Assembly: GCA_947585615.1 (NCBI GenBank)
Contig: CANPXD010000007.1
Location: 1-42,079, forward strand
Length of the DNA: 42,079 nt
Direction of reading: 5' to 3'
From: an uncultured Clostridia bacterium
GTDB lineage: Bacteria; Bacillota; Clostridia; Oscillospirales; Acutalibacteraceae
Part shown: piece by piece, positions 7,128 to 9,564 of the stretch
Numbering within the stretch: the first letter of the stretch is position 1
Layout: each line of letters begins with the position of its first letter
The notes under the pieces: generated by a model
Database searches by the model: none
What the model was told of the DNA's origin: nothing
Seen by the model: the letters and a program-made list of their open reading frames with translations, nothing else
Made by a program: the position numbers and the translations under genes

Positions 7128-7850
7128 TTATAAAACCTTTGAAAGAAAATCCTTTAATCTTGAATTTTGAGGATTTGTGAAAAATTCCGCAGGAGTGTTT
7201 TCCTCCTGAATATATCCCGCATCCATAAAAACAACTCTTGAACCAACCTCGCGTGCAAAACCCATTTCGTGTGTAACAACCACCATTGTCATTCCGTCGT
7301 CTGCAAGATTTTTCATAACCTGCAAAACCTCGCCGACCATTTCGGGATCCAGCGCAGATGTAGGCTCATCAAAAAGCATAACCTTAGGATTCATCGCAAG
7401 CGAGCGAACGATTGCCGCGCGCTGCTTCTGTCCTCCTGAAAGAGAACTTGGATAGGCGTCCGCCTTATCCGCGAGACCAACTGTTTTCAGAAGCCGAAGC
7501 GCGTTTTCACAGGCTTCCTCCTTGCTCATCAGCTTCAGCTTAACAGGAGCAAGGGTTATATTTTTCATAATGGTGAGATTATTAAAAAGATTGAAATGCT
7601 GAAAAACCATTCCCATATGCTTGCGCACTTCGTTTATATCCGTTTTTTTATCGGTTATAAGCTGTCCGTCAAACCAGATTTCACCTTCGGTAGGCGTTTC
7701 AAGCAGATTGAGACAGCGCAGAAAGGTGGATTTGCCTGAGCCGGACGGACCGATTATAACGATTTTATCTCCCTTGTGAATTTCATAATCAATACCGCGA
7801 AGAACGTGATTGTCCCCGAAGCTTTTCTTTAAATTACAAACTTTTATCAC
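7128..7850 (-). CDS. Polar amino acid ABC transporter, ATP-binding protein (GlnQ-like)
   Basis: ATPase of an amino acid importer, 240 aa, the normal length for GlnQ/HisP. Walker A is GPSGSGKST (about residues 34-42), the Q-loop is in MVFQHFNLF, the ABC signature is LSGGQKQR, Walker B is [13 protein letters not shown], and the switch His is in VVTHEMGFA. It overlaps the permease gene upstream by 17 bp, so the two are translationally coupled. The substrate is a polar amino acid by family; which one is not readable. Confidence 0.94.
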
Positions 7851-8544
7851 TTTTCCTCAAGCTCCTTTCCATAATTCTGATAAGCAGCGTAATGATAAGC
7901 ACCAGTACAATATATATCAAAGCCATAACAAGATACGGAACCATAAATTCATAACTGTTACTGCCTATGTAGTTGAAAGCAACGTACAAATCCATTGCTC
8001 CGACAAAGCTTACAACGGATGTTTCTTTAATCAGGGCAATAAATTCATTACCGAGAGTCGGAAGTATGTTTTTTACGGCCTGTGGAATAATAATCTTCAT
8101 CATTGTTGTTCCGTAGCCCAGACCTACCGAACGACCGCCTTCCATCTGACCCGGATCAACGGAAAGGATTCCTCCGCGCATAATCTCGGAAATATACGCT
8201 CCGCTGTTCAGACCAAACACACATACTGCAACAGAAACCGATGTCATTTTCAGCCCGAGTATCGGCAGCATAACATAATAGAAAAGAAGCAGCTGAACAA
8301 CGATCGGAGTTCCCCTGAAAAAGCCGACATAAAGACTGCACAATGAATTCAGAAAGCCTGTCACACCGTTCTTTTTCGGAAGAACACGGATTGTTGCGAT
8401 AACCGTTCCTATAAGTATGCCTATTATAAGACCCATTACCGCTATAAGCATTGTGTTTTTTAAACCGGTAACAACATTTCTGTAGCCTCCGGCGTTTACG
8501 AACACGTTTATAAAAGTCTCTATTTTCTTTTCAAAATTACCCAT
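7834..8544 (-). CDS. Polar amino acid ABC transporter, permease (HisM/GlnP-like)
   Basis: Integral membrane permease, 236 aa from the ATG at 8544, which has AAGGAT upstream. A GTG at 8610 extends the frame, but it lies inside a terminator-like hairpin with no ribosome site. About five membrane helices are visible, beginning with [19 protein letters not shown]. The cytoplasmic coupling (EAA-type) loop is [14 protein letters not shown]...IIPQA, where the usual Ala-Ala is Gly-Gly. It follows the binding-protein gene and precedes the ATPase gene in one operon. Confidence 0.92.
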
Positions 8545-8592
8545 TTCAGTTATATCCTTATACAGGGAAACTTCCCTTGATTTAAAAACAAA

Positions 8593-8632
8593 GTGAAAGG
8601 ACTCAAGCACAACAAGGTTTAAGTCCTTTCAC
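8593..8632 (-). terminator. Intercistronic terminator/attenuator between binding protein and permease genes
   Basis: On the minus strand GTGAAAGGACTTAA pairs with TTGAGTCCTTTCAC (one wobble) around a 12-nt loop, followed by TTTGTTTTT. It sits inside the operon after the binding-protein gene, where a leaky terminator would give more binding protein than permease. Confidence 0.65.
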
Positions 8633-8679: not shown

Positions 8680-9564
8680 TTATGCCACGCTGTTTATAGC
8701 TTCTGTAATACAGTCGGCAGGTGCTGAGTCAATGATTACGTAATTGAGGTTACCGTTTACAAGATCCTGAACCGCAAGAGAACCGTTTTTATAGCCTACG
8801 CAGGTTGCAGGAAGTCCGTCAAAGCCCCATTCAGCGTCGCCCTCAACAAAGAACTGACCTGTTGTTCCGTTTTGAACGCCGATTTTTGTTGTGCTGTCCT
8901 TTGCGTTGAGGATGGCAACAACATCGTCCGCTGTGGCACAACTGTCAAATTCGGTATCATCCGCTGCAACAATAAGCTTCTGAGCGGCTGAATAATACGA
9001 CTCCGAGAAAGTGACATATTCTTTTCTTTCTTCATTTATCGTTAGTCCTGCCATCGCAATGTCGCTCTTGTGCTGACCAACCGAAAGACAAACGGAATCA
9101 AAATCCATATTCTGGATAACAAGCTCCTTATCAAGCTTCTGAGCGAGAAGCGACGCGATTTCCATATCTATACCAAGATACTGATCGCCGCTTGTATACT
9201 CAAACGGCTCGAATGCGGCATTTGTTGCCACAAGAAGCTGATCCTTTGAGGGGTCAAGAGCGGCAGATGTAACAGGAGTGGGCGTACCGTCACCGAAATA
9301 CTTATTGCAGATTTCGTCAAACATTCCCGAATCCTTAATCTCGGCTATGAATTCATTTACGGAAGCAAGCAGATCTGCTTGATCCTTGTCAACGCCGAAA
9401 GCATATTCCTCAGATGTGAGGTCTACATCAATTACCTTTACTTTAGCGGCCTGCGCGGCGTCACCGCCATTTGATGAAGTGCTCTGATTTGCGGAGCAAG
9501 CGGCGAAACCTGCAACCAATGCAAAGCAAAGAAGGATTGAAAGTACCTTAGAAAGCTTTTTCAT
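8680..9564 (-). CDS. Amino acid ABC transporter substrate-binding lipoprotein, circularly permuted
   Basis: Extracellular solute receptor of the importer, 294 aa. Residues 1-22 are a lipoprotein signal peptide with lipobox GFAAC and lipidated Cys23. The domain order is unusual. Residues 41-90 (VKVIDVDLTSEEYAFGV to DEICNKYF) match the segment that ends ordinary family-3 binding proteins. Residues 110-294 match the segment that normally starts them (LLVATNAAFEPFEY, GIDMEIA, MDFDSV, DIAMAGLTINEER, GVQNGTTG) and end at VIIDSAPADCITEAINSVA, where a usual protein would go on to the strand now at residues 43-48. A Pro/Thr/Ser linker (91-109) joins the old C and N termini. The start follows AAGGAG. 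Ligand residues appear kept, so it is probably functional. Confidence 0.88.
   Translation of the reverse strand: MKKLSKVLSILLCFALVAGFAACSANQSTSSNGGDAAQAAKVKVIDVDLTSEEYAFGVDKDQADLLASVNEFIAEIKDSGMFDEICNKYFGDGTPTPVTSAALDPSKDQLLVATNAAFEPFEYTSGDQYLGIDMEIASLLAQKLDKELVIQNMDFDSVCLSVGQHKSDIAMAGLTINEERKEYVTFSESYYSAAQKLIVAADDTEFDSCATADDVVAILNAKDSTTKIGVQNGTTGQFFVEGDAEWGFDGLPATCVGYKNGSLAVQDLVNGNLNYVIIDSAPADCITEAINSVA

Follow-up and report, generated by a model that had tools for sequence, protein, structure and literature searches.

A probable natural circular permutant among the family-3 amino-acid receptors of Clostridia, and relatives cut at other sites

The window analysed here, a 42,079-nt stretch from an uncultured Clostridia bacterium (contig CANPXD010000007.1 of assembly GCA_947585615.1), carries a gene for a family-3 solute-binding lipoprotein of 294 residues (8680..9564; this and all other features described below lie on the (-) strand), whose open reading frame (ORF), coordinates and sequence we confirmed. 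Canonical family-3 receptors run from the first part of lobe 1 (block N1) through lobe 2 (L2) to a C-terminal strand-helix-helix block (C). A first-pass annotation, made from the sequence alone, claimed that in this protein the C block comes first, followed by a linker and then by the canonical start, so that the old C and N termini are joined. Is the protein indeed a circular permutant, how widespread is its block order, how many times has such an order arisen, and what might it do?

A hidden Markov model (HMM) was built solely from canonical relatives (48 sequences), and all 254 rotations of the mature window protein were scored against it. Unrotated, the protein matched the profile in two stretches, with residues 108-290 on profile positions 2-170 (165.5 bits) and residues 42-90 on positions 173-221 (42.2 bits). 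Coverage of the profile is thus complementary, and the chain is therefore complete, with no block missing or duplicated. The top rotations, starting at about residues 101-107, matched as a single domain over profile positions 2-221, at 217.7 bits the best of the 254. Searches of PDB sequences with phmmer gave crossed matches on single-domain receptors: residues 106-285 fell on 8-171 of 6svf and residues 48-91 on its 185-228, while in AncQR (4zv1) residues 109-283 fell on 11-171 and residues 40-92 on 181-233. Once rotated, the sequence gave one collinear match to AncQR (4-241 on 11-233, 100 bits), which together with the HMM and the rotation scan supports the claimed joining of the old termini. 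HMM, rotation scan and crossed matches all agree on the order C-N1-L2 in place of the canonical N1-L2-C, and for this reason we file the protein as a topological variant of family-3 receptors. We conclude that with high probability it is a family-3 (type II) binding protein whose chain has been circularly permuted in nature, and the receptor of an amino-acid ATP-binding cassette (ABC) importer.

The chain can be followed block by block. A signal peptide and lipobox (residues 1-23, 9496..9564; FAAC, with a presumed acylated Cys23) are indicated by the sequence, by Cys23 being kept in all 42 alignment rows that have a letter there (3 rows are gapped), and by a helix at residues 4-21, inside the signal peptide, in the AlphaFold2 model. 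A flexible tether follows (residues 24-40, 9445..9495; predicted local distance difference test score, pLDDT, below 50 at residues 22-33), and then the C block, here at the N terminus (residues 41-93, 9286..9444; profile 173-221). The junction linker from the old C to the old N terminus (residues 94-105, 9250..9285) lies between the matched profile ends. Profile and PDB-chain matches define N1 (residues 106-200, 8965..9249) and, with the AlphaFold2 model, L2 (residues 201-294, 8683..8964), which reaches up to the canonical APA helix, now the C terminus. The model is confident (pLDDT 89.3), and its secondary structure fits the permuted order and the sequence-based placing of the new chain ends, after the APA helix and before the KVIDVD strand. 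Because the new termini lie there, the lipid anchor attaches at a different point of the fold, as the first-pass annotation had also argued. By sequence, residues 41-90 probably occupy the canonical C-terminal place in space.

A frameshift does not account for this order, and an assembly error probably does not. A second C block hidden by a frameshift, which the first-pass annotation had raised as a possible objection, is excluded: the block matched only itself in a tblastn search of the window (9444-9286; next best E-value 1.9), and the receptor stop is separated from the permease gene by 69 nt. An assembly error is unlikely, because all 80 relatives examined (the best 80 of 152) share the order over a full-length match, among them records labelled as strains rather than as metagenome-assembled genomes (L088, L100, L106, L121, L128, L133 and L134).

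Downstream of the receptor lie the genes that a family-3 receptor is expected to have beside it, an ABC importer permease (7834..8610; BPD_transp_1, polar amino acid type) and an ATPase (7128..7850; GlnQ/TcyN-like), both identified by domain search; for the ATPase the best NCBIfam model was PRK09493, with 321 bits, under its cut-off of 379. The receptor itself matches PF00497 (SBP_bac_3) in two stretches at an E-value of 3.5e-29 (101.7 bits, cut-off 26.4). Residues T175, R180, G229, Q231, G233, T234 and T235 are kept in 45 of 45 rows, and D279 in all 44 rows with a letter there. R180 and D279 correspond to the Arg and Asp that, we assume, hold the carboxylate and amino group of the amino acid in GlnBP and LAO. 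Asn115, also present in 45 of 45 rows, stands at what we take to be the position of an acidic residue in receptors for basic amino acids, and our guess is therefore a neutral or polar substrate. Together, the kept binding residues and the operon suggest that a free amino acid is taken up. The ratio of nonsynonymous to synonymous change (dN/dS) is 0.03-0.11 against five close relatives, with dS near saturation. Three further cysteines, Cys86 (9307-9309), Cys159 (9088-9090) and Cys209 (8938-8940), are kept in 43, 45 and 42 of the 45 rows; the first of these belongs to the moved block and the second to N1, so the two might form a disulfide that ties the moved block to lobe 1.

How widespread is this order? 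Block order was called with three block profiles over 263 loci, from genus, family, class and phylum samples, which share a few genomes, and from named species genomes; since the sampled loci partly repeat contigs of the latter (L003 and L059 are an example), an ORF was counted once for each distinct string of its last 220 residues, and two loci (L207 and L256) were left outside the type counts. Homologues with the same order, which the first-pass annotation had proposed to look for, are numerous: the window order (type A) was found in 155 distinct ORFs, the window's own included. Both permease and ATPase genes stand just downstream in 144 of these, five have a permease gene before the fetched stretch ends, two have an ATPase gene alone, one (L108) is fused to a permease and followed by an ATPase gene, and three show neither gene, two of them near the end of the fetched stretch. 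The L108 fusion is a 542-residue ORF in which a window-type receptor continues in frame into the permease. Full-length matches occur in 29 of 80 genomes of the window's genus, its own counted, and in 34 of the 200 genomes of the family sample. The species genomes of the best 80 of 152 relatives (L059-L138; 61-83% identity) include many Lachnospiraceae or other Clostridia, and eight more distant ORFs (L184, L189, L192, L195, L197, L198, L199 and L202) have the window order as well. From cysteine to first profile match the median distance is 13 residues in the window order and 18 in canonical forms.

Within the genus, none of the 29 genomes with a permuted receptor had another match below 1e-8; in 42 others there was a match with an E-value between 4e-34 and 5e-25, starting no earlier than residue 85, and nine had neither. 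All eight of these 42 matches that were fetched have the canonical order. This mutual exclusion (Fisher's exact p = 3e-14, a value that ignores kinship among the genomes) suggests that canonical and permuted receptors stand in for each other in the window's genus. The window's own genome has, at an E-value of 0.001, one other match, a distant canonical receptor of 25% identity (L002; G000:C100:4294-4734).

The permutation is also not confined to one cut site. Relatives aligning across the C-linker-N1 junction with 33-45% identity proved to be permuted elsewhere. In type B, with the order L2-C-N1 (L139-L158, and part of L182-L207), we counted 38 distinct ORFs, eight of them fused to a permease. 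One type-B receptor, L157, shows two matched stretches on most of the single-domain PDB receptors listed: the starts of chains are matched by its C-terminal part (residues 166-258 on 11-104 of AncQR), and chain ends, in other rows, by its N-terminal part (residues 30-145 on 143-261 of 4i62). Longer ORFs place two or three type-B units before one fused permease (L206, 1000 residues; L249/L259, 779; L258, 1091), and L207, whose lobe 2 went unscored by the profile, is a further type-B case by eye. A third type is cut inside lobe 2, so that the chain runs from the second half of L2 through C and N1 to the first half, and comprises four distinct ORFs (L208, L239/L261, L244/L262 and L252/L263), three of them outside the window's class; type B is likewise found outside it. 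In the class sample, 23 of 293 genomes have a close window-type match, and 27 more have a fetched junction-spanning match classed as permuted (eight of window order, 16 type B, one tandem type B, L207 by eye and one cut in lobe 2), giving permuted receptors in at least 50 of the 293. The same rearrangement and two others occur in many related gut bacteria, and evolution seems to have re-cut receptors of this kind on several occasions.

How many origins do these orders have? We built trees on blocks put back in canonical order. A quick tree held 103 of 256 reordered rows: of the 148 window-type rows of the main clade 12 were chosen, and rows more than 85% alike were dropped within each topology. 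The careful tree has 95 rows, eight further long-branch rows (from L206, L249, L257 and L258) having been dropped. The topology label changes 10 times on the careful tree, where well-supported branches force at least five changes for type B and two for the window order; on the quick tree, long branches included, there are 11 changes, with five forced for type B and only one for the window order. In approximately unbiased (AU) tests on the 95 rows a single clade was rejected for all permuted rows (p 5e-80) and for type B (p 5e-70). Some close pairs point to recent change: L153, of type B, shares 72% identity with canonical L031 and L214, and L195, of window order, 70% with canonical L237. On the tree the order of blocks has changed more than once.

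Several observations weigh against a permuted fold that arose repeatedly and by tandem copying. For the window order a single clade was rejected less firmly (AU p 0.018, a moderate value), and parsimony cannot tell gain from loss, so that reversals to the canonical order are possible. For L207, the one case with a tandem relative available, a reading as a mosaic of two tandem domains found no support, because all three of its segments are nearer to the second domain of that relative. In structural comparison, sequential alignment of the model gave low TM-scores (for 4prs_A, 0.43 of the query), which a permutation would produce but so would an uncertain lobe angle. Moreover, seven of 50 structural-alignment rows are aligned only from model residue 60-63 onwards, so that a helix of the moved block is paired with something else in those chains. 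Among these alignments, PDB 5jkq (PfVFT1) aligned to model residues 60..294 over 208 residues despite 8% identity, and its chain order may be worth checking for permutation.

We propose that the receptor, permease and ATPase of this operon would together form an amino-acid ABC importer. In the permuted receptor lobe 1 would be one continuous stretch with both hinge strands kept, and the lipidated N terminus would be tethered at the edge of lobe 2 and the hinge instead of at lobe 1. A free alpha-amino acid would bind between the lobes, as the kept Arg180 and Asp279 suggest, whereupon the receptor would close and hand its ligand to the permease. Most likely a canonical gene would have been duplicated in tandem, in frame, and the pair then trimmed at either end; no intermediate was found. 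The same kind of change seems to have been repeated in related receptors, at no fewer than three cut sites.

Whether the shifted anchor changes anything is a separate matter. The chances seem to us evenly balanced that the permutation is neutral: new termini at exposed places of lobe 2 would be harmless, tandem copies of short genes are common, and the place of the anchor would have no effect. Operon and lipobox are alike across the compared topologies, the window type retains the residues of the ligand site, and the two forms seem interchangeable in the window's genus, all of which fits neutrality; three cut sites and some ten topology changes exceed one chance event, but do not thereby imply selection. 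Somewhat less probable, in our judgement, is an adaptive change, in which moving the tether from lobe 1 to lobe 2 would alter docking on the permease or permit fusion to it. The observed cut sites all lie in lobe 2 or at its edge, which makes lobe 1 continuous and shifts the N-terminal tether, and permease fusion occurs in eight of the 38 distinct single-unit type-B ORFs and once in the window type. However, our queries were the window protein or its C-linker-N1 junction, which favour cuts outside lobe 1, and the pattern of cuts is therefore partly made by construction and is a lead rather than a rule; canonical relatives, too, are lipid-anchored (47 of 48) and can be permease-fused (L093, L255 and L256). 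It is very improbable that the block at the N terminus is a domain added separately, merely resembling the canonical C block, in a protein with a truncated receptor fold, since, modest as the block's own scores are (42.2 bits on the canonical profile, about 21 bits on single PDB chains), the profile coverage is complementary, the best score falls at the predicted rotation, PDB matches are crossed, and the moved block has invariant residues in the 45 rows, among them L49, T50, E52, Y54 and G57.

The wider series of cut sites is more surprising than the window protein itself. We tentatively suggest that Clostridia and related classes hold a natural series of repeated permutations, with several independent origins, some having canonical relatives at about 70% identity, and selection favouring a lobe-2 tether and a continuous lobe 1; its cut sites would number at least three, one ahead of the last hinge strand, one where the chain first crosses the hinge and one within lobe 2. 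Closely related receptors of the same operon kind are available both in canonical order and with the chain opened at any of three places, and such natural pairs make the effect of chain order and tether on an ABC importer testable. Annotation by profile lets permuted receptors pass as ordinary solute-binding proteins, and they offer ready-made permuted scaffolds for amino-acid sensors.

Among known systems, the canonical family-3 (type II) receptors GlnH, ArgT/LAO, HisJ and ArtJ (PF00497) share with the window protein both lobes (by profile), the ligand-site residues, the lipobox (in Gram-positives) and the operon with permease and ATPase; the window protein differs in its rotated blocks, its anchor at the lobe-2/hinge edge and its continuous lobe 1. 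A search of one open-access literature collection with circular-permutation terms found no account of permuted family-3 receptors. The nearest precedent in principle is TpMglB-2 (Tp0684) of Treponema pallidum, reported as a natural permuted, lipid-anchored type I sugar receptor of an ABC system that keeps ligand binding, with permuted strands in the N lobe, an added fourth hinge crossing and one arrangement described; with its relatives it forms the 'Type Ic / Cluster Bc' receptors, and its authors propose the name Type Ic and raise membrane tethering as a possible reason for the permutation (PMC4990184), which would also favour an adaptive reading here. The window protein has the circularly permuted topology that marks Type Ic, a principle shared across different fold classes. 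At an E-value of 0.001 its Pfam matches are PF00497, and PF10613 below its cut-off only, and it is thus not a type I sugar receptor. In GlnPQ-type tandem receptors (6h30), a C-linker-N1 junction lies between the two domains, and the unrotated window protein aligns across it; those receptors, however, consist of two complete domains in canonical order fused to the permease, whereas the window protein is one permuted domain of 294 residues with its permease in a separate ORF.
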